A DNA stretch of 64,000 bases. It comes from Caenorhabditis elegans. Taxonomy: Eukaryota; Nematoda; Chromadorea; Rhabditida; Rhabditidae. The DNA is taken from assembly GCF_000002985.6 (NCBI RefSeq), contig NC_003283.11, positions 17,547,501 through 17,611,500 on the forward strand, given 5' to 3'. Under the pieces are notes generated by a model. It saw nothing but the letters and a program-made list of their open reading frames with translations, was not told where the DNA came from and made no database searches. The stretch's first letter is position 1. Every line of letters begins with the position of its first letter. Shown one piece after another: positions 15,710-37,369 of this stretch. A program made the translations under genes and the position numbers.

Positions 15710-18503
15710 TTATATTATCCGTTTAACTTGAAATGAATTAGGAGTAATTTTCAAAAGGAATTTTTTGTTGTGTCGTGTGTAATTTATTATCGGCCATTGA
15801 TTGCTTTGATATCCTGGTACGAATACATTTGCAATTTCAATTGGATCGAAGTCGTCGGATTCGAAGTTTGCATATTTGAAAGTGTCGGATTTCATCAAAA
15901 TCTGAAACTATGTTAATTGTTTATACTTGAAGCGTAAAGTCTGCAGCAAATGCCTAAGCCTAAGCCTAAACTCCTAAGCTCAAGAGTAGTATAAGTCCCA
16001 CACGACACCCCCATCCCACACCAGACCCCCCTATTGACCTCTCCCAAAATGGGGTGTCCATCTATGGATGTCCATTTATGGATGGCCATCGTTTTTTATT
16101 GATCTGTTTTTTTCGTTTATCATGGAACTGTTTTTTATTAGGAAAAAATGTTGTACTGTATGGGAGAAAATCTGAAATTAAAAAATATTTGAAATCGAGT
16201 ATGTGGAATAAAATGTTTTCATTTACACTTTTAATATGTTTCATTGTGCACCCCTCCTCTCTATTACTCCGCCCCACTGCACAATCGAAAATCTCATAGT
16301 CAGTCTAAAGAAATTTAGAACATCATTATCCAAGTTGACACTTTCACGACAACAAGCCCCTACACTGAAAGTCATAACTCCTGGCCCTTCATATGGAGCT
16401 TGCAAGAAAACTTAGGTCATCCGAAAGCTGTGTGCACTATTAAAGAAATTTCTTTAGAATGAGTTTTTTGATTGTGCAGTGGGGCGGAGTAATAGAGAGG
16501 AGGCGTGCACAATGAAACATATCAAAAATGTAAATGAAAACATTTTATTCCACATACTCGATTTCAAATATTTTTTTAATTTCAGATTTTCTCCCATACA
16601 GTACAACATTTTTTTCTAATAAAAAACAGTTCCATAAAAAACGAAAAAAAAAACAGATCAATACAACAGAACAATAAAAAACGATGGCCATCCATAAATG
16701 GACATCCATAGATGGACACCCCATTTTGGGAGAGGTCAATAGGGGGGTCTGGTGTGGGATGGGGGTGTCGTGTGGGACTTATACTACTCTCAAGCGTGAG
16801 CCTAAGTCAAAAACTTCAGACTTAAGCTTCTTGGTGACCTATACGTCTCTCTGTGAAAATTCGCGTTGATCGGCCAACTGGAACCCTCTCAAAAATTTTA
16901 AAAAAAAACGGGAAATTCTTGAGCCTAAATACCGTCAGTGGCGAGCGTTAGATTGGCAAGCGTCAGCTCGCCAAGCCTAAGCCTGAGCCTAAACCTAAGC
17001 CTGAGTTTAGAATAAGATTATGCTTAGAACTGACCCTAAGACTAAACCTAAACCTAAGTCTAAGCCTAATCCTAACCCCTGAACCATTCAAAACTTACAT
17101 CTCGAATTTTAATCGCATCATCTTTTGCGAAAAGATCCACAGTAACGTCAAAATAAGCTAGATGGAAGAACTTTTCAATGTTCATGGAGCAAGTGTCACT
17201 GTCAAAAATTAAAGCTTTTGCATTTTTCAGCTGAACTGTATCCATTAATTTTGTGCTATGGCCGTCTGTAGAAGAGGCAAAAAAGTGAACAACTTCGAGC
17301 GTTTTAGGCTCGAAGTACGGCAGGATTGCGTCGATTTCTTCGTTTTTCAATTCACAAACTAGTTTTCGGACTCGTAATTTGTTCATCGATCTCAAGACGT
17401 TCAATACATCGTTGAAAATGTTTTCCCGAATTTGCTCAGACATTTGTGCTTCAAAAAGTACGGAAAATGTTCGTGCGTCTTTAGTCACTACTGTATTGAA
17501 ATCTTGAAGCGCTATTTTCCGATAATCTGTTCCTTTGATTTGAATTTTTCTGTTCTCGTAGATAATTGTGCATCCGTTTGGTACTGGGCAGTAGTTGACG
17601 GTTCTTTCGTTCAAAAATAGTCTTGCTTCATCTTTTTCGAAACATATTCCCATGGCGTTAAAATGAAATTCTTGTTGGTCAATTTTGTCACGGAGAATGC
17701 GCGAAACTTTTCTGGCCACGAATCTTGAAAAATTTTGGATTGAAACCATATTGACTTTTAGATGAAATTTATGCCATTTGAGAAATCGTTAAAAACATTT
17801 TTGGTCAAACATTTGTTTTAATTGTTTTTTGAAAACTTCCCAAAATTCATTTTTTCGGAGACATTTCAAGGTGTTTCTATAGTTGTAAAACTTCATAAAA
17901 AGACGATGAAAAAAAATACTTTGATGGAAAAACTCATCTGAATAATTCATATCTACTTTATTGCTACAATTTTTGCATAAGGACCTTTTTTGAATTACAT
18001 GGGGTGTGTATAGAAGTCTATGACCACACGGTAAATATCATACTTTCTTTATAAAATCTCACCTATCGCAAAGTTCCATTTTGGCACAAATTTCATTCCA
18101 AACTTTTTCCGGCATATTCTGCAGGGAAGGTTCTTGTGGCTCACTGAAAAACATTAAAATTTTCTGTAAAGAAGCTTAGCACTTACCCATTAAAATATTC
18201 GACGAACTTCCTGCACCACTCTTTTTCGGAAATTTTGTGTGGAACGTCTGATGGTGGATTGATCGAGCAACGCAGATCATTGGAATTTCGTACTTCAATC
18301 TGCCTATTATCGTCCTGCAAGTCATGATTACCATTATAAAATCTATGAAACCAATATTCAAATTCTTTGTAGGCAATCTTCTCCTTCAAGGTGTTGCAAA
18401 TTGTTTCATAGGCTTCATTCACAGTCTTTTTCTGGAGCACTTCGTAGAAAATACAAGATCGAATGAAGGTTTTGGAGTAAGGTTTTTGAGCGGTGGAAGT
18501 CAT
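15710..18503 (-). CDS. HTH_48 / F-box / FTH fusion protein, copy B
   Basis: Minus-strand exons 18503-18187, 18143-18063, 17723-17099 and 15901-15710 join in phase. Three exon lengths equal copy A (317, 625 and 192 nt) and exon 2 is one codon shorter (81 against 84 nt). The N-terminal Mos1-like HTH reads SCIFYEVLQKKTVNEAYETI, the F-box NMPEKVWNEICAKMELCDR, and the FTH domain ends at DPIEIANVFVPGYQ. No stop or frameshift is seen, so both duplicates may be active. Presumed SCF adaptor. Most amino acid changes lie in the FTH domain and the HTH-to-F-box linker. Confidence 0.87.
15983..16790. mobile_element. 808 bp palindromic element, copy B
   Basis: Duplicate of the element at 8633-9434, in the last intron of the copy-B gene. 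A few substitutions and a CATAGTCAGTC/TTCT difference in the left arm make the arms slightly less perfect than in copy A. Confidence 0.87.
16968..17085. repeat. Degenerate TTAGGC/GCCTAA array, duplicate
   Basis: Copy of the array at 9593-9712 with a small insertion (GCGAGCGTTAGATTGGCAAG) just before it. Confidence 0.75.
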
Positions 18504-19924: not shown

Positions 19925-20192
19925 ATGGATGATCAGCTTGAAAAAAATTTAGAAGTAGGAGAATGGAAAAAATGTGAAGAAAAAGCAGAATCTCCGTGAG
20001 TTGTTTCGCAATTTTTCAGCAGAGTGAATTAAGTTTTTGTTAATTTCAGAGTTGGGAACCCTTTTCTACTTCATTATGATCACTTAAATCTTTGTGTTTG
20101 AATGCAAAAACACTGTTACTAATTAAGAGCGTAGTTTTTTAGGGAGGACCAACTAATTATGTGGGGATGCAAATTACACCAATAATTCCCAG
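19925..20192 (+). pseudogene. 5' remnant of an HTH/F-box gene next to the LTR element
   Basis: ATG at 19925 begins an exon ending at 19995 (MDDQLEKNLEVGEWKK). An exon at 20143-20192 has the same 50 nt length and position as exon 3 of the double-HTH gene. The HTH exon that should follow is missing: 93 bp later the LTR element starts. The remaining exons are not found in phase on the far side, so the gene was cut off here. Confidence 0.6.
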
Positions 20193-20285
20193 GTGAGCAA
20201 AAATTCTTACATTAATACAGAAACAGCTGCAGTTCTACTACAATGGAACAATCAGTTGTTATATATACCGTATATTCTCTATTAG

Positions 20286-21056
20286 TGTTGTCGATTCAGC
20301 CCTTCGAGGTCAATCTCGACAACCTTTTTAACAGTGCTCTGATATAGGTTTCTACGGAATAGCCCACTATTCTTAACCTATATCAGCTCGACCGCACCGT
20401 TGAGCATTACTCCAATTATTATCTCTTCATTACATTTTATTTCATTCAAATCCGTTCAGTATTCGCCGAGATATAAATATATCTATAAATATTCGTATTC
20501 AAATCACGCGCCAACACCTTATGGTAGCGCGCTCGCGGCGAGACCCACGCGTCTCTAACTTCTTGGCATCGCGCCAAGTCCACCGACCGCCCGCGGGGAG
20601 TTCGAATATGTCCGTCAATTGTGACGTAATTGAATACCAATTCCGGTGTAATCTCCACGTATCGTTTTCCCTCACGTGCAGATATACCATCATGTTCGTT
20701 AGATTTATATCTTTAATAACAGTTTGAACTATTACCAGTCTAAATGACCCATTATCATCATTTCACCATCATATTCGCCAGACGAGGGTTTTTCACCATC
20801 TTAAGAACTTCTAATATCATCCTTATATGTTCTTTGCTGTATTTCCCTCATTTTACTTGTTTTTCCTATTTAGAGTCCTGCTCTACCCACACGGGAGAGG
20901 TTGTATAATAAATAGGTTTTTGAGTATTCCTTTGTTCGTCATACACCGCTTATCTTACACAATTCAGATGCTTTATCGGGACACACGGAGAGAGAGAGAG
21001 AGAGGTACCGGAGGCGTGATCGATACCGACTACTACCATCCTACACGCCCTCGACA
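20286..21056 (+). repeat. 5' LTR
   Basis: Starts TGTTGTCGATTC and ends CCTCGACA directly before a putative primer binding site. It contains an AATAAA at about 20907. Only the first 18 bp are matched by the 3' copy, so the right edge is inferred from the TG...CA rule and the adjoining TGG. Confidence 0.7.
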
Positions 21057-21074
21057 TGGTGCATCGAACCGGTG
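21057..21074 (+). promoter_or_regulatory. Putative primer binding site
   Basis: TGGTGCATCGAACCGGTG follows the LTR without a gap. The TGG start fits pairing to a tRNA CCA end, and TGGTGCAT resembles tRNA-Gly sites of other retroelements. The exact tRNA was not checked. A donor-like AAAAG/GTAATC at 21094 could splice the leader to the accessory gene acceptor at 21824. Confidence 0.45.
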
Positions 21075-21879
21075 GACAAGGATCGACGTTTAAAAGGTAA
21101 TCTTTCGTTCAAAAATCGATTAAAAATGCAAAAAATTTCGTCTAAAAATATCAAAAATTACCAAATTTATACCAAAATCTATCTTCAAAATTCCATTTTT
21201 CCAAAAAACTCTATCAAAATTCCTTTTTTTACCTAAAAAATCAATTAAAATCCAATTTCTATTCAAAAATCCATACCAAAATTGCATAAAAATCGATAAT
21301 GAGCGGAAGATTTATTCTGAAACTCTCCTTGATTTCAACTATTCACAAAAAAGAACCCGTCGGACCGCTCTCTCCTCTCTGATGTACCTAGAAATCACTG
21401 AATTTCGAACAAATTACTCAATTATCCAAGTATATCCATCGAGTGTATCCTCAACATGATCCGAACGAGGAAATATTCCGTTGACTTCGAAAAAACTCTC
21501 AAGCGAATCGAGAAATCTATGCAAATCGATGATTTAGTAGAAAACTTCACTAAATCGAGCTGTATCGCTAAGAAGATCAGGCAAAAATGCCTCAAAATCG
21601 ATTATCTGCTCAAAATTGTGTAGATTTATTATTTTTCTCATCAATTCTCACGAAAATTTCATGAAAATCATGCAAAATTCCCATTAAAATCCACTGAACC
21701 CCGATAAAATTCGTTGTTTACGCGTGACTACGGTAGACTTTTCTGTGCAACCTGACGTGCGGTGTATGCGTACATTTCGCCCCGCCCCCAATTTCGAATG
21801 AAAATATTTTCAATTTTTAGGCCAACAGCTGCCATTTATCGTCAGAACTACTTATTCCAGCACGGATTTCGAGTCGAAA

Positions 21880-24103
21880 ATGCCAAAAAGTGAGTTTTAC
21901 GTGATTATTTCATAAAATTTATGCAGAAAATTCGGAAAAATATCGAAAAAATCGACGAAATCTCGATTTCGGCCTAAAATTTTGGGATTTTTCGTTATAA
22001 TTTTAGATTTTCCCCATTTCTTGAATTATTTCGATGATTTCTAAGCGAGAATACGCGTGGCCCTGTAATGTAACATCAAAATTACTTGAAATTCTCCGAA
22101 AAACTTGGAAAAATCGGAGAAAAACGAATTTCGAAACTTTTCGAAACTTTTCGAAAATCTGCAAGTCACCTCAAAAATCAATTTTATCAAGTTTTCAACA
22201 ATCTTAAACTCTCTAATCGCCCTTAATATCAATATTAATCAATATTTGATTCCAGAACAACGAGAAAAGGCCGGAAATCATACCATCAACATGGATCCTC
22301 GTGCCGAGCCAACTCAAGAAGCTGGAAATCAATATTACCAACGAAAGGAGGATGAAAATCATCATATCTTCGCAGAAGTACCCACGAAAGGAATCTCCTG
22401 TGAAAATACCATCCCCGATGCGATTTTAGATGAGGAGAAAGAGACAAGAGAAGGTATGGTCTAAATTATTATATAAAAATCATTATTATTGATTTTTTTA
22501 GACCCCCAATTCATCAGCGAGATGATAGAGCAACGCGGAACTACGAATACCAACGCAGCAATTGAATTTGCCCAGCACGACGTGATGGCAACCATATCAA
22601 TCGAGAAAGAAGCCAACCAGCTGGCAAAAATCTCCGACCTGCTGCAAGAACCCGCCGAACTCTGCCCAAAACCTCCGCCGGTATGCCTTTAGTCTCCAAA
22701 ATTGTTGAAATACTCATTATTTAAAATTTTTACCGAATTTCTCTCGAATTATTTAGCAAATTCTCTCACTGGTGACATTAATCAAAATCTATCGATTATT
22801 TAATATTCCCAATCAACATATTATTCGCTAAATCGATGAATTATTCCAGATGAGCCCAACCAAGAGCATCCATTCCAATCAATCCTCACCGATCAAATCA
22901 GACGGCTACTCTTCTGAAAACTCCAATGAGCAGGACTCGAGTTTTGAGACCACTACAGAAGAGACACCATTGCCGGAGAAATCGCCTCCGAAAGCCGTCG
23001 AAACCCCCATGAAAACCATCGGGAAAGAAAAAGCTCCACCATCCGAGGACAAATTGCTCACACATACCACCAATATGGAAGAGAGAGATCATGGTAAATA
23101 TTTATTAATGCGATCTTAATAATTAAAAAGCAATCAAAAAATTCAATTGCAGTCACCGACACCAAACTCGACAGAATGATCTACATACTCGAAAGTCTGG
23201 AGAGATTACACCAAACCTCCTGGGAATTCCTGCACAAAATGGAGAGTACCATCGTTGAAAGTTCAAAAAATGTGAAAGAAAATGAGAAGACCATCAAGCA
23301 ACTGGGCGAAGAAATTCGCAAGAACCATGCCGTCAACCAGCAGCTGAACAATTTAATGAACAGCACCTTGGAAGACGCTACTCGTACCATCAAAGTTGCC
23401 CACGAAGCCATGAACTCACATAAATATTGGAACGACAATACCAACGAAACCATCACTCGCCATCTATACGAATTCGCAGCCATTGTCCCACGAATGGAGA
23501 ATGCTGTGCAAAAACTTACCGGATACTGTGCAAGATACCCACAAGAAGCTCTAGGGATGAGATCTGAGAACGTGGCTCCACAATGGAACCATTACCCTCA
23601 ACCCCCACCAAAGGAGGCTCCAAAAGAAGCAATTGAAACTACCATCAAGAGAACCGAGGTAAATTAGCAAATCATTCAATAACCAAAAAATAACTCATAA
23701 ATATTCAGAGTACCTGCACATTTTGCGGACTGTACAACCACACCAGCGAGAAATGCAAGAAATTCTTCACGTGGTTCGATCGACGCGAAAGACTAACCGA
23801 GATGAAGAAATGCCATCACTGCTTGGAAGTCTACGAGCCAGTCGAATTCTGTGGAGCTCAAATGCATACCAACTGCCCAAGCGAAGACAGTTTCTGTAAA
23901 TATTGCAAGGCACTGAGAGGTACCCAACGCGGATGGAAAGACACCGCGGCACACCATCCAGCCGTGTGTGAGCATGCTCCAAAAGAGTATAATACCCAAG
24001 AACGTCCGGTGAGTAATGAATATTATGAGAAATCATTAGAAACAAATATTGAATTCAGATCAAAAAGGGAAGATACATTCCGAAGAGAGATACCACCAAC
24101 TGA
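21880..24103 (+). CDS. Spliced accessory protein of the LTR element: coiled coil plus zinc knuckles
   Basis: Seven exons join in phase: 21880-21889, 22256-22453, 22502-22680, 22850-23093, 23153-23658, 23709-24008 and 24059-24103, giving 493 residues. The first exon encodes only MPK plus one base after an acceptor at 21824. Residues 1-210 are polar, low-complexity and acidic. Residues 215-350 look like a coiled coil (LESLERLHQTSWEFLHKMES). Residues 382-395 are a CCHC knuckle (CTFCGLYNHTSEKC). Cys/His clusters at about 414-435 (CHHC...C) and 442-466 (CKYC...HHPAVC) follow, mirroring the three-knuckle layout of the downstream Gag. I do not know a named family. It may be a Gag-derived nucleic-acid-binding protein made from a spliced RNA driven by the LTR. 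It is one of the longest intron-rich frames in a retroelement I would expect, and a captured host gene is an alternative. Confidence 0.78.
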
Positions 24104-26075
24104 GGAGGAAGCAAATCATAAGCACCTTCTACTACCACTTTCAATACCATCTCTTCATACCATCGTCTCCTATTGATAATTGCTAATAAACTCGCCATAC
24201 CATCTTGTTTGCATTTTAAATAAATAATTGATTGTTGAATAATTATTGAACTACTTATTGATCAGTTTCGGAATCGAGTTACAATACTCTTCATTATCTA
24301 TTCCCCCCCATTCATGATACGATGTTCAATATTATTCTAAACGAGGTTGAAAAAAGTGAAAGAGAAAATGCGAGAAAGATAATTTAGATAATTTATAGTC
24401 ATACTTTCGGACTAAAACATTCAAACGAAATTTTTCGAGAAAAAATCACGACGTGTAGTTATTTGCCCACGCATAGGCCAGAGATAGTAAACGTACCATA
24501 AGACACCTGAGCGAGCCATCATTAATCCAATTTCCAATCCAATCCAATCCAGCCGCTCTGCTATTTCTGTTGCACCCTGTCCGAGCCTTGTTTGTATGCG
24601 TGCTAGTTAACAAGTAATGACAGTGTTTAACTAGGTGATAATGATACCGACGAAAAAAAAAAAAAAAAAATTGGGAAATCCCAACGTCAATAACGGTGTA
24701 TCCCGAAATGAACATTATTTTCCAAAATCCGAAGACTTCAAAAATGAAACCGGATATATCGTCATTGACGTTTAAAGGCAACTAATATAAATCAGGGAAA
24801 CGCCCCTAACCATATCAAAATCCAGCCTTATCCAAATCGCAAAAGGATTTCCCAAACACCGAAGAAGGTGAAAAGTGCGTTAGTTATACCACCTAAAAGC
24901 CACCTAGAAATACCCATCAAGAAATTTTAGGACGACGCTTCGCTATATCTAATCATCCAATCCAATCCAAAAGCTCCCAAATTTTCCCAAATTACTAAAA
25001 ATCGAAAAAGGATCCCCCCTAATGGGAGGAGCGGGGAAATGACCCCCCTAATGGGAGCGCTAGCGCACTATTCACAAGTTAAGTAAGATAAAACGCGTTT
25101 AGTCAACGCGGGAATATAATTTCCTAAAAAGCTATTCGAAATTGAGCCAAAAATAATTCTATATCGAAGAAGTGAATATAATTCGCGAACCGAGAATTAG
25201 GACGCCAATCTTGAGAAAATATCTCGAAAACTGAACAAATAATACCATCATTTCTGAATTATTGACAGTTGAGTGGCAGGAGACCGCGAGAAAATCAGAA
25301 TTGCGAGTTCAGTTGAGAGATCCAGATTTTAATTGTCCATCGAATTGGCGTTTGGTGGAGAATTATAATTTGGTTCGGCGAGCAATAATAAGAATTAATT
25401 CGAAATATAAAAATTGAAAACTCAATTAAGATTGACTTTTGAAAGAAATTATAATCTTTTTCCATAAAAATAATGAGAAAAATATCTGTAATACCAGTCT
25501 ATATTCAAAAAAAAAACACGAAACGTGACCCCCTAATCTACTTTAATCGGAAATTGTTAGTATAAAAGGGAAAAAATTCAGAAATTTAATCACTTCGAAA
25601 CAAATAAGTTGATTCTCTCACTTCGATAAAAATCGATAGTCTAATATTGAACATTGTGACGTGTCTAAAAACGACAAAAAATAATGAAAATAAAATTATT
25701 TCATTACAGCAAAATGGAAAATCCGAACGGAAATCCAAATGCCGAGCATCCCAATCGTCGACCATCAGACCGTCTCCCAAATCGTCAAGATTGCCTTTAA
25801 TACGCTCTCAGTATTACCCACATTCGAAACGAGAGGTATAAAACGAAAATTAATTGCGAATTGACAAAATGTTCATTTTAGATACCAATCGGTGAAGAAC
25901 CAAGAAGCTACTCGAGAGATACCAGGCCATCAACTGCACAAACACGATGCAATTCAGTACAAAAATCTACGAATAAAGAAAATAATTAATTTAATTATTT
26001 CTAGACATAATGCACTGATGGAGATGGTAGACTTCATGAGATTTCGAAATACCCACGAGAAGAGAATATCCGAAA
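24104..26075. other. Interior of LTR element, no clear gene
   Basis: AT-rich sequence with the same ATACCATC-rich style. Around 25709-25880 a frame reads TVSQIVKIAFNTLSVLPTFE between an acceptor (TTACAG) and a donor (GAGAG/GTATAA), which may be a small exon, but I could not join it to a following exon in phase. Confidence 0.45.
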
Positions 26076-26548
26076 ATGATGGTTGCAATACCAACATTAA
26101 TTGTCGGAAAATCGGAATACGATTCGAGAAATTTAACAATAGTTCAAAGAGTTCAAAAGATGGAGAGGACTCCACGTCGTTGGCCCGCAAACAGGCAAAA
26201 ATATGCCCATTGTGCTCCGGAAAATTTTTTTGGAATACACGTCTCAAGCTATACCCTCGAAGAGTGCATTATATACCAACTTCTGAACAAGAACAAAATT
26301 GTCACCTACTTAGCCGTCAATACCACTGGTTTTTCGCAATCATATAATTCGAAATCAGAATTACACCTCGTGAGTATACGCAAATAATTAAATTGAAGTG
26401 AATTGAAAATTCTAAAAACTTAATCAATAATATTCAACTATGAAAAACGGCAAAATTTCAGCAAATCGCCAAAATACCACCGATTGTGGTCATCGAACAA
26501 GAAGTTTCAGCGAAACCAGCTCAAATTCAAGCTTCATCAACCATCTGA
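26076..26548 (+). CDS. Putative second accessory coding segment (two exons)
   Basis: Exon 26076-26369 and exon 26462-26548 join in phase through a GTGAGT...TTTCAG intron and give about 126 residues. The first part contains RRWPANRQKYAHCAPENFFG and YTLEECIIYQLL; the last exon ends at a TGA. There is no family I recognise. The start is uncertain: the frame is closed a short distance upstream and no acceptor is obvious, so ATG 26076 or 26079 may be used, or upstream sequence is damaged. Its position between the zinc-knuckle gene and gag suggests a second accessory gene, possibly decaying. Confidence 0.45.
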
Positions 26549-28685
26549 GTGATACTACCGATGATGAGTCAGAAATGTCGTTAATTGATGAATAACCAAC
26601 GAAGATAAATATAATACCTTCGTTTTAAAATTTATTAATTATTCCCCGCCATACCCTCTATACACATTTCAGTCCTTCAAAGACAACCATTGAGCTAAAA
26701 GCTCCCGAATAAATTCGAATTCGTTGAAAAATGTGTACTATTATTGAAATATCAAAAGAAAATCTAAGAATCGGCATAAAGAGAAAAGGAATAATTGATA
26801 ATACTAAGAACGAATCTCAAATAGTTGAATAATAAATTAATTTAATAACAAAGGTCACAAATAAATCTATTGCTTGAATGTAGAAAAGAAAGAAAGTGAG
26901 TGAACGTTGAATACTGAACGAAAAAGTACAGTAGTAAAACGAAGTCAGAGATTTCAGAAAATAAATCAGTTGCAAAGTTAGAATAGAGCGGAGCCGTCTG
27001 ACTGGAGCGTATATTTACCTCTGTTCAGAACCCATGCAAAGCAACTACGTCGAAGCGGGACAATCTGAAATAAAAATCTGAAATACCTGAACCTGAAAAG
27101 TTAAGATCGAATCTGAAAATAAAAAGGAAGTACTACTACAGAAAAGATCGTTAAAATACAATGTTCATTTAATACTCGAAAAGAAAAATACCAACAGATT
27201 ATACTCTCATTAAAGGAAGAATTTATCTTGGAAAAAAGAAAAGTCTCCACATAATACATGTATAATACGAACATCTCAGTACATGTTTCAGAATGAGATT
27301 AGTAGAACACCCGAATATGTCAGGCAGACGCCTCAAAAAACTTAAAGGAGTTGAAGAGAGGTTCTCATATCTAAGGCATTCAAGATATGAAACTTTAGTC
27401 CGTGACTAGGGATTGTTCTTTTTATTATGTCCTTATCAGCAAAAGTACTCCGTGACAGGAAGACAAGATGTGACTCGCTCCGGCACACCACCGGAGAAGT
27501 CAATCTTCGGAAAAATGTCAAGCTGAATAAGGAGATTATATACAAAGGATACTCGGAAAATGTTACACGAAAACACATTTACGAGGAGCGAAAACGACAT
27601 GTATATGATTAATCTTGCATAAGGTTCATAATAAAACATAGAAGGCAGTGCTTAAGAAAACTGACTATGGCTAATACAATTCAAATATGTAAAGACACAA
27701 CAGTTCTAAAAAACATTATCAGAACATTCAGAGCGCTCGAATTGTTCATTACAAAGCCTAGAACTGGTTGGTATAATGATTTAAAAGATTGATTGATCAC
27801 TGTGATAAAATTACGCAGACGATTAAATTAACCAACGGCAGCATTGAGATAGACTTCGGTATCACCCACTGTCTCAAAGCACATCCCGATCCAGCAGATA
27901 TGAAAAACGGCAGCAATGAGATAGACTTCGGTATCACCCACTGTCTCAGAGCACATCCCGACCAAAGAAATATGATAGACCACGAATATGATTCAAGCTA
28001 GACCACGGTTATTCTAAAACGAACACAAACCTACTACTTGAATTTCCACTATCAGACCGGAGACCACAGATACTCGGATCAATCATACCATCATAATCTT
28101 TGAAAATCAAGTACAGTGTTACTAGAAATACATGAGTATTTATGAGGAGAAGTGATGTAAAACGAAATGTGCAAAGTCATACGCGAAGTTACAAGTCAAC
28201 CACGGTAACCAATAAGCCAAGTGGACCACGGTAGTTACAAACAAAACGTCAATCCCACTGCTTGGATGAAGAATAAAAACCATCAAATCGAAAAACCCAT
28301 GATTCTGTAACATATATTTGACTAAGCACAGAAATTTGTAAATCAAGGGAGCTTGAATTACATACGAATGAACATCACATGGAAGAAAACTACCTCAATT
28401 GAGTAATAAGATCAGCTCATTTGAGAGACTCCGCTGAAATTCAGTGTTAAAAATTGATCAGATCAATAAAGATTCACCACGAATTCTATGATTACAAATA
28501 CATGAGATGTCAAAATTCCTCATTTTTCAGTACCAATACATATATTCTAACATACTTCTATCTTGTTTAGAATACCATCCAATATCGTATCATCGAATAC
28601 TATCGTATCCATAAATCCCTATTTTTTCTCATAGTCGTACATTACTACAATATGTTACGTTCAGGGTCATCTACAATCATCTTTA
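26549..28685. other. Interior of LTR element upstream of gag
   Basis: About 2.1 kb with no long frame on either strand. It contains a 72 bp tandem duplication at 27834-27964. It could be a long leader or decayed coding DNA. Confidence 0.5.
27834..27964. repeat. 72 bp tandem duplication
   Basis: AACGGCAGCATTGAGATAGA at 27834 recurs at 27906 with one change, followed by a shared CTTCGGTATCACCCACTGTC. The two copies are separated by a short variable CCAGCAGATATGAA. Confidence 0.85.
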
Positions 28686-28700
28686 TTGCATCTTCGGACG

Positions 28701-31145
28701 ATGTCAGGAGACGAAGCTACATCTAGAAACTCGAGTTCAACTCGAGTCAATGTCTCTCATGAGACACATCATCCAATACCCCCGGTGCGAAATTCGGCCA
28801 CCCGGCCAATTAGTACCATAATTACCAGAATCCTAAAATCTAAAGAAGACTTATTCGAAAAATCGAAGATTCTCTTCGATAAAATTGGCGACACCATGTC
28901 ACCAACTTCCCAATCCGATCTGATCAACATTGATCAGCACGTCATCAAACTCTCGAACCTCGAGCAAAAAATCGGAAAAGTTCCGAATTACATCGAAAAT
29001 CGTTTCAACCTACCTGAGATCATCAACCATCCTCAGATGGACGTGATGAGAGCCGAGGCTAAAAAAGAGCTTGACCGCCTTGATGCCGATAGAATCTTAA
29101 TGAAAATTAAGCAAGACAGCGACTTATTCAAAAGCGAGCTCAACCATCATAATTATGCCATCAGCCCATCTGAGGAAGACGTCGCCTTGACTGAAGACCA
29201 AACTAACGTCGATGTTGAGGATGATGATTTCGAGGCGAAGAATGATCAACTCTCGAGAGCCAGCAGTAATTACCAATTTACATCTTCAGTTCCTAATACC
29301 AACGATACTGCAAATCTCGAAAACGATAAAAGAGACGAGGTCGAAAGACTCAAAGCCGAACTTGCTCGCCAAGCCGAGAAATTGATGAAAGCTGAACAAG
29401 CATTGAAAGCCAGTGAGAAAACAGCAGCTGAAAAAGAACAAATCTCCAAGGATCTCTTTGAAACTGAGAAGAGATCGATCATTCAAAGTGAAAGAGAAGA
29501 TCAGGAGAAAAATCTCGAAGCTGCTAAAAAGGCTAGCCAACGCGAAGTCGAAAAACTTCAACAAGAAAAAATGGCTGCCGAAAATCTAGCCCAAGAATCA
29601 AGTGAAAAACTCAATGTTGCCAAAGAAACCACCAACGAATCATCTAAATCGCATATCAAAGTTCCTGGGGATTCCACCCAACACGAACAATCAAACAAAT
29701 CAAGCCTAAATCATATTCCAAAAGCAACTGAGACACCTATTCAAGGACAAGTGACAAATAATACCGTCACACAAATGTCAAATCAGCCACCATTAGATAC
29801 TTTGCCTAAAACAATAGAACAATTAGTTCTTGGAATGTCGAAATTGGTTGATATAACTACTGAAAGTCATAGAGCTCTTATGCTAGAAATATACAATCGT
29901 GAAGAGAAAAGCTCTCAGGATCTTAAAAATACCGATATCAAACAAAATCAAATGATCCAATCTACAGAATCTATTCAACCAGACATTAGAAACATCCACA
30001 AGCTGCTCATAAAATTCAGCGGAGAAGAACATGAAGATTTCGAATTCTTCTATGAAAGTTTCAAAGAAACCGTTTTCAAAAACAAGAACTTCACGAGCCA
30101 CATTAAATATCTAATTCTCAAACAACACGTCAAAGGCTCAGCCAGTAATTACCTACAAAAAAGTGAAAACTATGCCGAAGCTGTTGAGTTATCTCTCAAA
30201 GAACTCAAAGCAGTCTACGGACAAGAAGAAGATAGTCTAGATCTACACGAAAAACTCTTAACTCTTCCATTCGATCAATATGATTGGGAACAAATGATCA
30301 AAGATCTATCAAGACACAGAATTGTAGTCTATCAGCTGAGAAATAAAAATATGAACGTGGACGATATCAGAACGATTTCTCCTTTCATCGCTAAATTACC
30401 CACATCGATCAAAAACGAACTAGCCAAATCTACGAGAAAAGGTCTCGAACAATTCAAATGGCTAGAGATTCATGATATGGTAGCCGAATGTATCGATACC
30501 ATCAAAGCAAGATCCAAACTTGATCGCGGAGCAGTTTCAGTCAATGAAATTCCAAGAAATAAAGAGTCCATTCACCTTACTTACAATAACGGTCAAAATG
30601 GTAGTGATAACAAAAGATCCAACAGTCACACTGAATACAAGTACAAAATCACTCAACAGAACGAGAAAGAATCTGACAAACCATATCGAATCCCTGAAAC
30701 AGGAGAAATTGTGGAATCATATTACAAACCGGAAAATCAAGGTCCAAATATGCGCATCATCCAATTCACCTTTCCGTTCCACCAGCCAGAGAGCAATGTA
30801 CAGTGTATGGCATGCATGGGTCCACACAAATCTATGAGATGCACACTCTCGAGCAAACAATTCAGAGAAGTAATTCGAGAAAAGAGACTCTGCGCCAATT
30901 GTCTCAATCCACATCACGACATCAAAAAGTGCAGAAGCTATAGATCCTGTGCATATTGCATGGGAAAACATCACTCAGGAGCATGTCCAAAGAAAGAGTA
31001 CTATAGAGATACCGATAACTATCCAGAAGAAGCAGATCCTATCGTCTGGAAAGAACCAGTTAATAGAGTTAATATGTTATTTCGAGACCAACGGGGCCAG
31101 CAATTCCGCGGGCAACAATTCAACACCCAAACCAACTCTCAATAA
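28701..31145 (+). CDS. Gag polyprotein of BEL/Pao-type element
   Basis: One open frame of about 810 codons; the start is ATG 28701 (MSGDEATSRN) or the in-frame ATG 28686. Residues about 215-320 form a charged coiled coil. Residues about 430-620 match the DUF1759 capsid-like region of BEL/Pao Gag (IRNIHKLLIKFSGEEHEDFE). Near the C-terminus are three Cys/His knuckles: CMACMGPHKSMRC, CANCLNPHHDIKKC and CAYCMGKHHSGAC, which should bind the packaged RNA. The frame has no internal stop, so selection may have kept it. It ends about 70 codons into the overlapping protease frame, which suggests a ribosomal frameshift. Confidence 0.85.
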   Translation: MSGDEATSRNSSSTRVNVSHETHHPIPPVRNSATRPISTIITRILKSKEDLFEKSKILFDKIGDTMSPTSQSDLINIDQHVIKLSNLEQKIGKVPNYIENRFNLPEIINHPQMDVMRAEAKKELDRLDADRILMKIKQDSDLFKSELNHHNYAISPSEEDVALTEDQTNVDVEDDDFEAKNDQLSRASSNYQFTSSVPNTNDTANLENDKRDEVERLKAELARQAEKLMKAEQALKASEKTAAEKEQISKDLFETEKRSIIQSEREDQEKNLEAAKKASQREVEKLQQEKMAAENLAQESSEKLNVAKETTNESSKSHIKVPGDSTQHEQSNKSSLNHIPKATETPIQGQVTNNTVTQMSNQPPLDTLPKTIEQLVLGMSKLVDITTESHRALMLEIYNREEKSSQDLKNTDIKQNQMIQSTESIQPDIRNIHKLLIKFSGEEHEDFEFFYESFKETVFKNKNFTSHIKYLILKQHVKGSASNYLQKSENYAEAVELSLKELKAVYGQEEDSLDLHEKLLTLPFDQYDWEQMIKDLSRHRIVVYQLRNKNMNVDDIRTISPFIAKLPTSIKNELAKSTRKGLEQFKWLEIHDMVAECIDTIKARSKLDRGAVSVNEIPRNKESIHLTYNNGQNGSDNKRSNSHTEYKYKITQQNEKESDKPYRIPETGEIVESYYKPENQGPNMRIIQFTFPFHQPESNVQCMACMGPHKSMRCTLSSKQFREVIREKRLCANCLNPHHDIKKCRSYRSCAYCMGKHHSGACPKKEYYRDTDNYPEEADPIVWKEPVNRVNMLFRDQRGQQFRGQQFNTQTNSQ

Positions 31146-33291
31146 CTCTCTTTCTAAGGCAGGCACGGGATCAAAATTTAAGATTCGCGTGCCACCCACT
31201 GATTTGCCAACAGAAATCGCTTCAAATTGTTCTATTAACCCAAAAGTTTGCTCTAAAAGTTTAAATCTCAAAAAGTCTCATAGATACCATCATCTCAATA
31301 CCCAAGTTAATCTTAACAATCATACCAACTTTGACCAAAATTGTTCAAGTGATAATTACTGTACCGAAACCAACGCGTTCATAAATCACATCAATAATTC
31401 TCAAATTTTCAATCATGTTGCAACATCTGAATCTCATTCCGATAAAGATTACAGATTACCATTCATGTGTGTATACACTGCTGACGGCGAGCCGATCAGA
31501 GTCTTAATTGATTCTGGCGCTAACCTATCCATTATCGATCATGGATCAGCACGACGTATTGGTCTGAAAATTTTGAATACAACGCAACTTTCCATCACCG
31601 GTTACAGTAATACCATCACTTCCCAGTCCATCATTTACCATCTATGTCTGAAATCCACAGACTCAAAGAGCCCATTCGAAATGCAAATCGCGGAGACTCC
31701 ACATTTACCAAAAACACCATTCATGTGTCCCAATCTTGATCGAAAATATCTACAGTATCTCAAATCGAAAACATCCAATGTCGAAAAAATCATTCCCTGG
31801 CGCAGGTATTCAAATCAGTTGAATCAACTCGTACTACAGTCTAAAAGACTCAACGAAAAAACGCCATTCGGAATAGTCAATCATCCAAATCTTGACATTG
31901 AATTACTATCCAGAGCTACCAATTCACTCAATCATATTATCAAAATCAACACACATGAAGTCTACGCCATGACAGTACTAAAAATTACCGATTCGAAATA
32001 CGATTACCAAAAATTAGTACATACCATCGAGCAAATGTGGAATCTAAAAAACATCAGAATTGAAAACATCCAAATCAACAAGACTACGAAAAAAGACACT
32101 CGTGATCTAATGAAAGCATTTATCAAAAATTGTCAATTCAATTCTTATGGTAACGTTGCATTATTACTACCATTCAACGGAAACGAGAAACGTCTCGGTT
32201 CCAATCTGAACGTTGCAAAAAAGCGATTAGCATCAATAGTGAGCACTCTGAGAAATGGAAATCAGATCACAATCGAATATGATAAGATTCTCCAAGATCA
32301 GTCTCTAGATACAAAAGTTCAAACCAACTTGGAAATAATTGCAAAAATGCGATCAAGCGATAAAAACGAGTCCAAATGGAATACCTATCTAATTAATGAA
32401 CTCTATATGATTGATGCAAAAACAATTCTACTACAATGCCAAAAGCCTATAGGGTTAATCATTCATCAATTCTACAGAGAACCCATCAAAGAAGGCTCCA
32501 AAATACTAGCTAACTTAAACACCTACATTGGTGTTGACGGCTTAACTCTGAGCAAAAAATTGGATAGAAAAATCCAAATCATGAAAAGAATCAAAAAGGA
32601 CATCATCCTCGATCTTAAGTTGCTCAGATACGCACTATTCTCCGCTGAAGCGATGATCAACATCGTTATAATAGTCAGTGACTTTGTTAGCAATTATAAA
32701 TCGCTAATCGGAAGAATTACCGAAATTATTTCGCCAAAGAGCATGAGTGAAAAATGGTCGGAAATGGTAAAGGAGAGAGGGACTTATCTACTCATCCCAC
32801 TCGAAGTACACCACATGGACAAGGACAACGACTTGGACACCTCCGCACCGACGCAACCCACCGAAGAAGAAGACGACCTGGACTACAAGTCCTCTCCACC
32901 CCCATTACCACCAACACTCGCTCTAACTCAACTTCCGAGCAAAATTGCTCCGAACAGCTCAAAAAGAGCGGCTCACGTAGCCAAAAAATCTAACGACACC
33001 AATACCAAACATTTGTCTAGAGATAAAAATGTAACAAGAGATACCATCCAGAATCAGACAGAAGTCGATGATCATTACGTAGTATACAAAGATCCAGCTG
33101 TACCAGAACCAAACCTATTACATGATTGCTCCCACAGAAGTTACCCAGGGACTCAAGGAACATCAGATAATAATTTGCAAAATGCAACTGGTGAGACTCT
33201 TTGTACTCCTTTCACTCATCCAAATTCGTCTGAACCCCCCCAATGGGAGTGTTGTCGATTCAGCCCTGGAAGGGAAAATTCGATAGTATGA
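30949..33291 (+). CDS. Protease/truncated pol frame of BEL/Pao-type element
   Basis: Overlaps gag in a different frame; its likely expressed part begins in the overlap near 31075-31145. It carries the DUF1758-type aspartic protease motif VLIDSGANLSIIDHG (catalytic Asp codon at 31510). A section with YDYQKLVHTIEQMWNL and NVAKKRLASIVSTL fits the part just before reverse transcriptase in BEL pol. The frame then passes straight into sequence of unknown type and an acidic, proline-rich tail (TEEEDDLDY) without RT, RNase H or integrase. Because the frame stays open, the deletion is old enough to have been tolerated or was in frame. The last codons run into the 3' LTR fragment. Confidence 0.75.
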   Translation: MHIAWENITQEHVQRKSTIEIPITIQKKQILSSGKNQLIELICYFETNGASNSAGNNSTPKPTLNNSLSKAGTGSKFKIRVPPTDLPTEIASNCSINPKVCSKSLNLKKSHRYHHLNTQVNLNNHTNFDQNCSSDNYCTETNAFINHINNSQIFNHVATSESHSDKDYRLPFMCVYTADGEPIRVLIDSGANLSIIDHGSARRIGLKILNTTQLSITGYSNTITSQSIIYHLCLKSTDSKSPFEMQIAETPHLPKTPFMCPNLDRKYLQYLKSKTSNVEKIIPWRRYSNQLNQLVLQSKRLNEKTPFGIVNHPNLDIELLSRATNSLNHIIKINTHEVYAMTVLKITDSKYDYQKLVHTIEQMWNLKNIRIENIQINKTTKKDTRDLMKAFIKNCQFNSYGNVALLLPFNGNEKRLGSNLNVAKKRLASIVSTLRNGNQITIEYDKILQDQSLDTKVQTNLEIIAKMRSSDKNESKWNTYLINELYMIDAKTILLQCQKPIGLIIHQFYREPIKEGSKILANLNTYIGVDGLTLSKKLDRKIQIMKRIKKDIILDLKLLRYALFSAEAMINIVIIVSDFVSNYKSLIGRITEIISPKSMSEKWSEMVKERGTYLLIPLEVHHMDKDNDLDTSAPTQPTEEEDDLDYKSSPPPLPPTLALTQLPSKIAPNSSKRAAHVAKKSNDTNTKHLSRDKNVTRDTIQNQTEVDDHYVVYKDPAVPEPNLLHDCSHRSYPGTQGTSDNNLQNATGETLCTPFTHPNSSEPPQWECCRFSPGRENSIV
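33250..33267 (+). repeat. 18 bp remnant of the 3' LTR
   Basis: TGTTGTCGATTCAGCCCT is identical to the first 18 bp of the 5' LTR and then stops at the palindromic block. The rest of the LTR is not found on the far side of the block. Confidence 0.8.
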
Positions 33292-33356
33292 GGGGCGGGA
33301 GTGGGGGCGTGGCGTGGGACGGGCCAAAGCGAGTAGCGCCTTTGTGGAAGGCTTAA

Positions 33357-33642
33357 CTACTCGGCAAATCTCTCGTCCTGGAGCGCGGACGGGGCGCGAC
33401 GAGATCACGGGTTCGCGCTCCAGTCACCCATTTTTTCGCGCTCCTTACGAGCCACATCCGCGCTTCAATCGCGTTTGCTCCGCGCGCATTCCGAAGTTGA
33501 AAAATTCTTGCGAAATTATATGGAACGCGATCAGAGCGCCAACGTGGCGCGGAAGGAGCGCGAAAAAACGTGTGACTGGAGCGCGAACCCGTAATCTAGT
33601 CGCGCCCCGTCCGCGCTCCAGGAGGAGCGATTTGCCGAGTAG
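33357..33642. mobile_element. GC-rich palindromic MITE nested in the inverted-repeat block
   Basis: Ends CTACTCGGCAAATC and its complement; the inner arms contain CTGGAGCGCGGACGGGGCGC in both orientations. The mirror copy lies at about 36674-36959. Confidence 0.8.
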
Positions 33643-33966
33643 GGCTGTTAAGCAGGACCAACAAGAATGTCTTTTATTCTGCTACCGTCCTCATGATTTT
33701 GAAAAGGATGAAGCTGTGCTCTTGCCCTCACTCACAAAAAACTGAAAAAATATCGATTCCCGTCTTTCCAATTTAGACAATTTTTTCAAAATTTTTATTC
33801 GGGTCCTAACAACATACATTTTGAGTTTATTGAACTTATCCGTAATGGGGCTATTCAAGTAGCGTCGTGAAATTAAAAAAGTGTATTTCAATACACAGTT
33901 TGCCTTATTCAAGTAACTTCAAAAATATGTATTCCAATACAGTTTGCGACGTAATATCGCGACATT

Positions 33967-34118
33967 TTTTCACACGGTAACAAGTGAGAGACGCAGAGAC
34001 GTGTCCCCGCAGGGTGGTAAATAAGTTTCATTTCTTATGTTGTAAGTGCGGCGGGTGGGCGGAGAATCCTGCGAGGGCACATGTCTCTGCGTCTCTCATT
34101 TTTTACCGTGTGAAAAAA
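33967..34118. mobile_element. Small MITE with GAGAGACGCAGAGAC ends
   Basis: TTTTTTCACACGGTAACAAG at the left and its near-complement at the right enclose a non-palindromic core with GCGGCGGGTGGGCGGAG. The mirror copy is at about 36198-36349. Confidence 0.75.
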
Positions 34119-34414
34119 TGTCGAGAAATGTCGCGAAATTACGTCACAAACTGTATTGAAATAAACGTTTTAATTTCAAGACACTACTTGAATAAATATG
34201 TTCAGATAATTATTCTTGAACAGTATTATAAACACCCACTTTTGAGCAATAAATCGCTAAATAAAAATCTTAAAATCGTGCAACTTTTACTCAATAACGC
34301 CAATCAATTAAACTTGATGGCTCTGTGAAGAACTGGTATTTTTCATTGATGATAGAGTACGGGTGCACACCAGAGCTGGAACAAACATGTATTTTCAGTA
34401 TGAAAAACTAAAAT

Positions 34415-34680
34415 GTAGGGCTCCCATGAGGTCGCCGCAAAGGCGCCTTCGCCGGCCTCAGCGGTCGCCGCGCCGGCCTCACGGCGTCACTCTCGCCTTT
34501 CACTGAATTACGCATAAACTTTTATTTTCATCTCTTATATTTGTTTCTAAATTTTCAACGAATTATTGAAAATTTAAATTTCACGTCAAATTCATTGAAA
34601 GCGGCGAACGGCAAAGGCGAAGGCCGGCCGGCGTGAGGCGAACATTTTGCGCCTCACTCATTGTCAGCTGAGAGCCCTAC
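34415..34680. mobile_element. Element with GTAGGGCTC ends, complete only in the left arm
   Basis: Bounded by GTAGGGCTCCCATGAG and CTGAGAGCCCTAC. In the right arm the matching sequence breaks off at 35706, inside the element. Confidence 0.7.
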
Positions 34681-34839
34681 TAAAATGATAATGTTCGTTT
34701 TAAACACGAAAACGAAGACAAAAATGTCACCGTTGAGAACTTATAAATTAAACATGGTTTTTAGACTCAATTCATGGTCCAATTATCTGTCATGAGCTGC
34801 GTTTAACATGCTATAAAAAAAAAATTTTGTCGGCTAACC

Positions 34840-35552
34840 TTAAAGGTGGCGTAGCGCCAGTGGGGAAATTGCTTTAAAAGATGCCTATGGTACCACAATG
34901 ACCAAATATCATAGTAAAAAAATTCAAAAAAAATTTCTAAATTTTATATGATTTTTTGAAAATTGCAAAAATCTCAGTTTGCGTCGAATTCCAATTTGAA
35001 TTACCGCCATTTGGATTTGTTCGATGGAGCGCGCTTGCACGTTTTTAATATTTTTTTTTTGTTATTTTCCACCGATTTTTCATGTTTTCAGTGTATTTTT
35101 GCTTGAAAATTGAAGGAAAAACCAAGATAAATGCACATAATTGATGAAAAAGCTACTTTACAAGCGTAAATCTAGGAAATCAATAATTTCTGGTTCGATG
35201 TCGTTTAAAAACGTTAGTTCTTATTTTTCAGACTGTGTCGTTCTTTTTCATCAATTATGTGCATTTATCTTGGTTTTTCCTTCAATTTTCAAGCAAAAAT
35301 ACAGTGAAAACATGACAAATCGGTGGAAAATAACAAAAAATAAAATAAATAAATTTAAAAAATTGCAAGCGCGCTCCATCGAACAAATCCAAATGGCGGT
35401 AATTCAAATTGGAATTCGACGCAAACTGAGATTTTTGGAATTTTCAAAAAATCATATAAAATTTAGAAAGTTTTTTTGGATTTTTTTATTGTGATATTTG
35501 GTCATAGCCATCTTTTAAAGCAATTTCCCCACTAGCGCTACTCCACCTTTAA
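34840..35552. mobile_element. TTAA-flanked palindromic MITE, copy 3 (713 bp)
   Basis: Starts TTAAAGGTGGCGTAGCGCCA and ends GCGCTACTCCACCTTTAA. The arms are long, with an inner inverted repeat around ATTTTTGCTTGAAAATTGAAGG. It lies at the centre of the 3.78 kb inverted-repeat block. Confidence 0.85.
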
Positions 35553-37048
35553 AATTTGCAAAAATTGGCTGATACCGTTTTACTACAAGATTTCTTTCAC
35601 TACGGAATTTCTTTTACTACAAGTTGCGCATTCAGATCTTTTACTACATACAATTTGTAAAAGATAAGGTAGTGAAAGAGTATTTGCCGTAGTAAAATAT
35701 CTATGCGTTCGCCGCTTTCAATGAATTTGACGTGAAATTTAAATTTTCAATAATTCGTTGAAAATTTAGAAACAAATATAAGAGATGAAAATAAAAGTTT
35801 ATGCGTAATTCAGTGAAAGGCGAGAGTGACGCCGTGAGGCCGGCGCGGCGACCGCTGAGGCCGGCGAAGGCGCCTTTGCGGCGACCTCATGGGAGCCCTA
35901 CATTTTAGTTTTTCATACTGAAAATACATGTTTGTTCCAGCTCTGGTGTGCACCCGTACTCTATCATCAATGAAAAATACCAGTTCTTCACAGAGCCATC
36001 AAGTTTAATTGATTGGCGTTATTGAGTAAAAGTTGCACGATTTTAAGATTTTTATTTAGCGATTTATTGCTCAAAAGTGGGTGTTTATAATACTGTTCAA
36101 GAATAATTATCTGAACATATTTATTCAAGTAGTGTCTTGAAATTAAAACGTTTATTTCAATACAGTTTGTGACGTAATTTCGCGACATTTCTCGACATTT
36201 TTTCACACGGTAAAAAATGAGAGACGCAGAGACATGTGCCCTCGCAGGATTCTCCGCCCACCCGCCGCACTTACAACATAAGAAATGAAACTTATTTACC
36301 ACCCTGCGGGGACACGTCTCTGCGTCTCTCACTTGTTACCGTGTGAAAAAATGTCGCGATATTACGTCGCAAACTGTATTGGAATACATATTTTTGAAGT
36401 TACTTGAATAAGGCAAACTGTGTATTGAAATACACTTTTTTAATTTCACGACGCTACTTGAATAGCCCCATTACGGATAAGTTCAATAAACTCAAAATGT
36501 ATGTTGTTAGGACCCGAATAAAAATTTTGAAAAAATTGTCTAAATTGGAAAGACGGGAATCGATATTTTTTCAGTTTTTTGTGAGTGAGGGCAAGAGCAC
36601 AGCTTCATCCTTTTCAAAATCATGAGGACGGTAGCAGAATAAAAGACATTCTTGTTGGTCCTGCTTAACAGCCCTACTCGGCAAATCGCTCCTCCTGGAG
36701 CGCGGACGGGGCGCGACTAGATTACGGGTTCGCGCTCCAGTCACACGTTTTTTCGCGCTCCTTCCGCGCCACGTTGGCGCTCTGATCGCGTTCCATATAA
36801 TTTCGCAAGAATTTTTCAACTTCGGAATGCGCGCGGAGCAAACGCGATTGAAGCGCGGATGTGGCTCGTAAGGAGCGCGAAAAAATGGGTGACTGGAGCG
36901 CGAACCCGTGATCTCGTCGCGCCCCGTCCGCGCTCCAGGACGAGAGATTTGCCGAGTAGTTAAGCCTTCCACAAAGGCGCTACTCGCTTTGGCCCGTCCC
37001 ACGCCACGCCCCCACTCCCGCCCCTCATACTATCGAATTTTCCCTTCC

Positions 37049-37369
37049 ACACAACTATAGTGAAGCGCGGTCCCGCGCAACGTCGACCGCAGTGCGCAGA
37101 GTGTGATAGAGCGGGTGCACAGAGTGTGCGAGAATAGAGCGGTATACACTGTTCACGTTTCGCCTTTGTGGAAGACTTCGCCCTATATTATAGTATGTCG
37201 TCATGATCGTCGCTGACACAGATTGAGATTGTGACGTCGAATTCTAAACAGTTACAATTTCTGTGTTTTTTTTTTTCAGCTCAAAATTTCAGATGAAAAA
37301 TAAAAAACTAGATACTGGCTTCAAATTTTTTTTTTGTTGGGTTAACATATATAAATTCGGAAGTTTCAG
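37049..37369. other. Junction region between the inverted-repeat block and an FTH gene
   Basis: Holds CGCCTTTGTGGAAGACTTCG, similar to GCGCCTTTGTGGAAGGCTT within the left arm, but not the missing 3' LTR. No F-box exon is visible, although the next gene needs one. Confidence 0.55.

Follow-up and report, generated by a model that had tools for sequence, protein, structure and literature searches.

Introduction

Non-autonomous long terminal repeat (LTR) retroelements that keep gag, have no reverse transcriptase (RT) and are moved in trans are represented by elements such as TR-GAG. In Caenorhabditis elegans, the Ty3/gypsy element Cer1 encodes CERV, a protein made from a spliced mRNA and required for the export of the unspliced genomic RNA, and the insertion sites of Cer1 vary among wild strains (PMC10309623). 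The BEL elements Cer8 and Cer9 are targets of nuclear RNA interference (RNAi) (PMC4367959), and Cer9 carries sdg-1, the product of which, SDG-1, sits near germ granules (PMC11793870). The interval chrV:17568000-17573000, with C38D9.2, is listed as a target of HRDE-1 in which a 68-bp fragment of Cer8 is the sole annotation, and chrII:13245000-13250000, with F15D4.5/F15D4.6, is listed with no transposon annotated; the same 2014 paper states that retrotransposition had never been reported in C. elegans (PMC4367959). The proteins of C38D9.2 and F15D4.5, named PIRE-7 and PIRE-4, have been described, citing earlier work, as nucleocapsid-like and encoded within retrotransposons, and the retroelement membership of C38D9.2 is thus already in print (PMC11717427). 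In the current study we analyzed the element around C38D9.2 in a 64,000-nucleotide stretch of C. elegans chromosome V (contig NC_003283.11, positions 17,547,501 to 17,611,500; the whole stretch is called the window, and its positions are counted from its first letter). The element is a defective BEL/Pao copy related to Cer8 and Cer9. An earlier note made from the sequence alone had read positions 20286-33267 as a large non-autonomous BEL/Pao element of a possible new architecture, with an accessory gene and no visible RT.

Results

A defective BEL/Pao copy and its RT-bearing relative

The window copy has a whole 5' LTR, which matches 23 places in the genome including itself (best other match, 80%), a long 5' region with the accessory gene C38D9.2, a late gag, and a protease followed by a pol remnant (Table 1). 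A BEL-type gag with DUF1759 (E 1.1e-4, under the curated cut-off) and CCHC knuckles, together with an aspartic protease (PF13975, E 1.7e-5, under the curated cut-off), assigns it to BEL/Pao; RT, Pao-type ribonuclease H (RNase H) and integrase had no match among the window open reading frames (ORFs) in Pfam. The LTR, its 18-bp counterpart directly after the polypurine tract, the zinc knuckles (found both in gag and in the accessory gene), the first gag ATG at 28701, 7.6 kb past the LTR end, and the seven-exon gene of 493 residues, the last exactly, were as the earlier note had them. DUF1759 was likewise recovered in gag, but DUF1758 itself gave no score in the window ORFs, though other aspartic-protease models matched. 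The absence of a visible RT also stands, but a pol remnant had been overlooked, which joins the start of the RT region, RNase H-integrase fragments and the C-terminal end of the integrase in one frame that is open to 33291. The 3' LTR is reduced to 18 bp, after which a palindromic element begins. No LTR was found beyond the palindrome (repeat search to 37000, LTR search, adjoining sequence), so the 3' LTR is lost at this locus and 33267 is not a complete element end.

The RT-encoding sister with the same LTR family that the earlier note suggested looking for was found on contig 2 (C2:13244573-13259641), at the F15D4.5/F15D4.6 locus of chromosome II. Its LTR pieces lie about 15 kb apart, and it is colinear with the window copy from LTR to tail. 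In contrast to the window copy, it holds RT (PF00078), Pao RNase H (PF05380) and integrase (PF17921) domains, spread over several broken frames, with rve under its cut-off. Relative to this copy, the window pol has lost about 1,700, 690 and 290 bp (RT, RNase H and most of the integrase) and a further 50-odd bp near 31790. The C2 copy is itself damaged, one LTR piece being without its end and the primer-binding site region and the other without its start; the two are 99.1% identical over the 230 bp they share. The accessory proteins of the two copies are 60% identical, and gag is about 79% identical. The six intron positions are the same in both, and splicing the C2 gene there gives exactly the public C2 protein. 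Since the C2 relative shares the accessory gene, its introns and the long 5' region and in addition has RT, the loss of RT is a deletion in the window copy, which is thus a defective derivative of its family. A new architecture tied to RT loss, as previously suggested, is not supported, because the RT-bearing copy has the same size, late gag, accessory gene and six introns, and because Cer8 and Cer9 also have a homologous zinc-knuckle ORF upstream of gag.

A dispersed, family-specific word on the sense strand

Word counts made ATACCATC and ATACCAAC prominent in the window element. The sense strand of this element has 34 copies of ATACCA and the opposite strand a single one. The 33 sense sites of the degenerate form TACCAHC (H = A, C or T) are distributed over exons (11), spacer (11), protease and pol remnant (7), gag (2) and LTR (2), with none in 742 nt of introns and none in the 823-nt leader. 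The window flanks hold 3/2 and 4/1 sites (sense/other strand), and 200 Markov simulations of the element gave a mean of 11 and a maximum of 19 sites. In the relatives, TACCAHC is found 24/0 and 20/0 times in the C2 pieces and 12/0 and 16/0 times in pieces of a further copy on contig 6 (C6, described below). Other BEL families carry other words, namely CAHCCGCG in Cer8 (17/0 and 9/0 in two stretches), CAHCCGCT in Cer9 (22/0 and 22/0, and 8/0 in a 97%-identical copy on C3) and GCTGCCC in a fourth family, represented by a BEL element on C5 (L045; 12/0). The word of another family reached at most 6/4 (a Cer9 stretch) and 6/1 (L045), TACCAHC being that word in both cases. Counts exceeded the maximum of 200 Markov simulations in all 11 pieces.

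When 8-mers were ranked after filtering of repeats, a form of the family word headed the list in every one of the 10 element pieces (scores 7.0-19.6), and the best words of eight control stretches scored 5.4-8.9; left unfiltered, the controls scored higher still through their repeats. The two best words of the repeat-rich control reached 8.9 (5/3) and 8.8 (5/0). The ranking does recover genuine dispersed motifs, since in a control from contig 4 it placed CTGTTTCA, which we take to be the Ruby motif of piRNA genes, at the top. A family-specific dispersed sense motif, as expected of RNA self-recognition, is thus found on the long pieces. In pol stretches of 3.5 kb, a strict 8-mer test reached 9 in three of five accessory-bearing loci, two of these being 97% identical copies, and in none of ten loci without the accessory gene (of 22 RNase H matches, 15 served here, with an identical duplicate and six others that were fragments or neighbours set aside).

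Cer8 and Cer9 are 71.6% identical where they align, and most of their motif sites have turned over. At the four sites in common (one beside an alignment gap) the last base is always G in Cer8 and T in Cer9. Over all CAHCCGC occurrences the last bases are A3 C7 G26 T2 in Cer8 and T44 in Cer9 (G vs T, Fisher p 1.4e-17). Between the window and C2 copies, ATACCA was conserved at 10 of 16 sites, and at 9 of 12 in the reverse direction, in the first aligned block, compared with 37.6% for six-mers; in the second block the value was 2/4 each way against 60.4%, and thus not raised. In the accessory genes of both copies together, exons hold 11 + 9 sites (20 in 2,941 nt), with none in introns (1,481 nt; 742 + 739) and none in the leader.

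The accessory gene and its domain in other BEL families

The splice sites of the accessory gene are canonical in all seven exons, and omega relative to C2 is 0.35 overall and 0.15 in exons 6-7. The sole contig listed for the matching database protein (P0001) has 1,733 bases and encodes all 493 amino acids; as this is shorter than the 2,224-base gene, spliced RNA was sequenced. Gag shows an omega of 0.22-0.36 in four comparisons. A search of 5.8 billion proteins with the accessory protein returned only the protein itself (with two residue differences) and the C2 copy, so that at this sensitivity other nematodes have no relatives of it; an equivalent search with the window gag had only the C6 gag among the matches listed. 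The earlier note had named the accessory gene at syntenic places without LTRs as evidence that would count against it. At E <= 0.01, exon 5 had matches only in the window and in C2; a 29-residue scrap of it lies in a small LTR derivative on C4, and all three places are LTR elements. The accessory protein has a predicted long helix (low confidence) and a triple zinc knuckle, for which a PDB sequence search with the zinc-knuckle profile gave a best E of 0.13. An origin of this zinc region from gag was considered and is not claimed (profile comparison probability 16%, E 0.0016). As a separate observation, the introns of window 21890-24058 are 83-98% identical to those of C2 and thereby more alike than the synonymous sites of exons 5-7 (dS about 1.1).

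The triple zinc-knuckle pattern was also detected, by a translated-frame scan, upstream of gag in Cer8 (L026:3287), Cer9 (L028:5917) and L045, and was not detected on the opposite strands of these stretches. In an alignment of six accessory-domain sequences, 11 columns are invariant, and ten of these hold Cys or His. A genome search located the domain at 12 places (E up to 1; two of the 12 are weak, and scoring covered the best candidates only). In six of the 12, a match to BEL RNase H follows about 6-11 kb downstream in the same orientation. The other six are the window, C6:13601153, C5:20304398, C6:16833826 and the two weak places, and all of these except the window were without an RNase H match nearby among the 22 such matches. 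C6:13601153, C5:20304398 and C6:16833826 are triple-knuckle genes, either remnants or domesticated copies, and the first has a further match to the accessory protein, upstream of its knuckles (25% identity over residues 261-454).

Cer8 and Cer9 resemble the window family in their BEL gag-pol (gag 31-33% identical, about 50% over the C2 RT/RNase H ORF; tblastn of the window gag to their gag, about 1e-55), in a long 5' region before gag with a zinc-knuckle ORF in it, in a dispersed sense motif, and in being nuclear RNAi targets as the window locus is (PMC4367959). They differ in the motif itself, in DNA sequence, where similarity to the window element amounts to one match of about 50 bp in the stretches compared, and in RT, which the window copy is without. 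The accessory knuckle is a candidate reader of the words in all four families, and the Gag nucleocapsid knuckle is one in the window family, Cer8 and Cer9; a Gag knuckle of L045 was not seen in the translated-frame zinc-knuckle scan. No literature description of the shared accessory domain upstream of gag, or of the dispersed motif in these elements, was found, as judged by titles and the starts of abstracts among the papers listed (20 of 214 in one search), in a search that most subscription papers lay outside.

A recently inserted copy without RT

Whole paired LTRs and a target site duplication (TSD) were seen in the C6 relative (C6:1658996-1670407, minus strand), the LTRs being identical at 818 of 820 positions and the TSD being the 5 bp TTTTC. 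Its gag frame is intact (689 amino acids, identical to database protein P0003), and it is without the stretch that holds RT in C2 and without the protease active-site stretch; the accessory zinc-knuckle exon was not found in it by sequence and profile searches. The near-identical LTRs and the TSD indicate that this copy moved recently, and LTRs so alike make it most likely that its many internal losses predate the insertion. The C6 copy therefore most likely moved in trans. The combination of an RT-less body, near-identical LTRs and a TSD is found for the C6 copy only. Of the earlier note's reading, the absence of RT and the movement of an RT-less copy of this family are supported.

The gag and the 3' end of these copies have different histories. 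In gag, dS is 0.28 and 0.37 between window and C2 (two pieces) and 1.14 between window and C6, and in the tail it is 0.20 between window and C6 and 0.47 between window and C2. This contrast fits a shared RT-less 3' end spread by recombination through template switching. The remnant ORFs are open across several deletions in both RT-less copies. Indels in the tail come in threes (2/2 relative to C6, 4/4 relative to C2), compared with 1/14 in the leader and 8/53 in the spacers (relative to C2). Tail omega is 1.04 against C6 and 0.55 against C2, and 88 random substitutions in the tail gave a mean of 3.4 stops, with none in 2.7% of the runs. In window 32669-33250 and the C6 tail the frame of the pol remnant is kept and its residues are not (omega about 1 between the RT-less copies). 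As a guess, an open tail frame with no conserved residues would suit the avoidance of nonsense-mediated decay.

Features of the window and neighbouring sequences

Table 1. Features of the retroelement in the window and the element that adjoins it (LTR, long terminal repeat; PBS, primer-binding site).
Feature	Positions	Strand	Basis or remark
5' LTR, TG...CA	20286..21056	+	5' flank ATTAG; genome LTR search
PBS TGGTGCATCGA	21057..21067	+	common to C6 copy
TACCAHC sites	20685..33048	+	33 sense, 2 other strand
Accessory gene, 493 aa, 7 exons	21880..24103	+	splice model; C38D9.2 via published coordinates (PMC4367959)
Accessory exons	21880-21889, 22256-22453, 22502-22680, 22850-23093, 23153-23658, 23709-24008, 24059-24103	+	
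Exon 6, triple zinc-knuckle domain	23709..24008	+	common to Cer8, Cer9, further loci
Spacer, 4.6 kb	24104..28700	+	11 of 33 TACCAHC sites
gag ORF (DUF1759 and three CCHC knuckles)	28701..31145	+	ORF list, Pfam
Protease and remnant-pol ORF, 805 codons open	30874..33291	+	overlaps gag, other frame
Protease	about 31480-31677	+	Pfam aspartic-protease models
Deletion scars	32303..32668	+	alignment with C2; two fragments retained
C-terminal tail and polypurine tract	32669..33249	+	
3' LTR remnant, 18 bp, TGTTGTCGATTCAGCCCT	33250..33267	+	first 18 bp of LTR; directly after polypurine tract
Palindromic element, 3.8 kb	33267..37049	.	arms 1343/1343 identical; outside retroelement

The PBS presumably resembles the 3' end of tRNA-Gly. 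Rfam at the gathering threshold gave no matches in 20000-37300. Within the spacer, 27834-27977 is a tandem duplication of a 72-bp unit, and cross-matches suggest that both units are present in C2 too. The palindrome (33267-37049) has nested inverted repeats inside and joins the 3' LTR remnant to unrelated sequence with no clear target duplication. The retroelement is bracketed by ORFs at 17072-17788 and 37248-38156 that, judged by eye, appear to belong to a single large gene family of C. elegans, of F-box/FTH type.

The small derivative on C4 (L046, C4:16893604-16896512) is a 2.9-kb deletion product with the 5' LTR, the leader and the exon 5 scrap, which is joined to the last 65 bp of an LTR, and all three of its motif sites are on the sense strand. 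Four LTR copies of the family are located at C4:15308215, 15830780, 16349076 and 16893607, within 15.3-16.9 Mb of contig 4, which we take to be the piRNA gene cluster region, and CTGTTTCA occurs in the flank of L046.

Discussion

Considering the distribution of TACCAHC and the recent insertion on C6, we propose that RT-less copies of this family are probably helped in trans, their own RNA being picked via TACCAHC, with the accessory protein as the likeliest reader. The proteins of the family would pick their own RNA through TACCAHC sites along the transcript, which would enable the passage of copies without RT, and the C6 copy would have been mobilised by RT and integrase from an RT-bearing relative. 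By analogy with CERV, the accessory protein may act as an export factor on intron-containing genomic RNA, the Gag nucleocapsid being the alternative reader. The analogy rests on an element protein made from a spliced mRNA (for the accessory protein, the splice model in two copies and the short contig) and on Cer1 genomic RNA leaving the nucleus unspliced. CERV differs in belonging to an element of another superfamily, in the position of its main ORF 3' of pol, and in that no zinc knuckle is described for it in the available part of the paper (PMC10309623). The host silences the family by germline nuclear RNAi, as is in print for the window and C2 loci (PMC4367959). Compared with gag-keeping elements such as TR-GAG, the window family is alike in gag kept, RT absent and movement in trans, and the window copy differs in its protease, pol remnant and spliced accessory gene and in having no complete 3' LTR.

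Several observations weigh against this proposal. The C6 copy moved and the accessory knuckle was not found in it, so the accessory protein is dispensable in cis. Besides, no copy among those examined is intact, C2 having frame breaks and damaged LTRs, and AlphaFold2 on a two-sequence alignment of the accessory protein gave no usable model (mean pLDDT 41.3). As the words were picked on the same sequences, the Markov simulations are not independent tests, and three of the 10 element pieces (7.0, 7.1 and 7.8) scored below the best control, the repeat-rich stretch with 8.9. Ten of the 11 sites in the accessory coding sequence are in one codon frame and ACC is used at 31 of 45 Thr codons, so codon use contributes to those sites. 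In the 3.5-kb pol stretches, a degenerate test reached 9 in one of five loci with and two of 10 without the accessory gene, so that no clean association of motif and accessory gene emerged from these stretches.

Across the four families, the word lies on the sense strand, differs from family to family and changes in concert, which points to RNA as the ligand and to a reader specific to each family. We put forward, tentatively and with somewhat more doubt than trust, that this BEL clade marks its own RNA by a family word of 7-8 nt, present in a dozen to over forty sense copies, with word and reader co-evolving. Cer8, Cer9 and the fourth BEL family would then each use a motif and a zinc-knuckle accessory ORF of their own. 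The concerted switch between CAHCCGCG and CAHCCGCT in Cer8 and Cer9 might be an example of such co-evolution, to be taken with the same reserve.

Among other explanations, the one that survives best, though we consider it unlikely, is that a host factor acting in splicing, anti-silencing or a messenger ribonucleoprotein reads the dispersed motif, rather than an element protein. The accessory-gene sites are exonic and absent from introns and leader, as exonic splicing signals would be, and the motif families probably share one germline machinery. However, a host factor should see one motif, whereas most sites in Cer8 end in a different base from those in Cer9, and unrelated words are found in the remaining two families; sites are also frequent in the spacer and in the protease and pol remnant.

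Domestication, with C38D9.2 and the gag-protease kept for a host role, is more doubtful still. Open frames, omega below 1 in gag and the accessory gene, a spliced transcript and the tolerance phenotypes of C38D9.2(ok1853) (PMC11309393) would agree with it. On the other hand, the equally constrained relatives are LTR elements that have either pol or recent LTRs, exon 5 is found only in LTR elements, the constraint may date from element life, and silencing of the window locus by nuclear RNAi is in print (PMC4367959). A new RT-free architecture, in which the accessory gene would be part of a non-autonomous lifestyle, is improbable to a further degree: two RT-less copies with open remnant ORFs and tail indels all in threes would suit it, but the RT-bearing C2 copy carries the accessory gene and its zinc-knuckle exon was not found in the recent RT-less copy. 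The least credible explanation is that codon bias, repeats or composition produced the motif excess as a by-product. ACC-rich Thr codons in the accessory exons, tandem repeats in Cer8 and Cer9, words chosen after looking and a mixed degenerate test in short pol stretches would suit it, but the motif is also present in LTRs and in the non-coding spacer, is nearly confined to the sense strand, stands out after repeat filtering and against Markov simulations, and has switched its last base family-wide.

Conclusions

The results that are new here, to our knowledge, are an RT-bearing relative with the same accessory gene, a recent insertion without RT, an accessory domain shared by four BEL families and, most of all, a family-specific dispersed word. 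They identify C38D9.2 and F15D4.5, which recur as targets in C. elegans small-RNA studies, as the zinc-knuckle accessory genes of two related LTR elements, and the recent RT-less insertion supplies evidence from sequence that movement in trans occurs in C. elegans. If the proposed marking of RNA is true, it would allow each family, its RT-less passengers included, to tell its transcripts apart from host transcripts and from those of other families. Should the dispersed motifs be a recognition code, the way in which an LTR element distinguishes its own long RNA with introns from host mRNA would become testable with four natural specificity variants in one laboratory organism.

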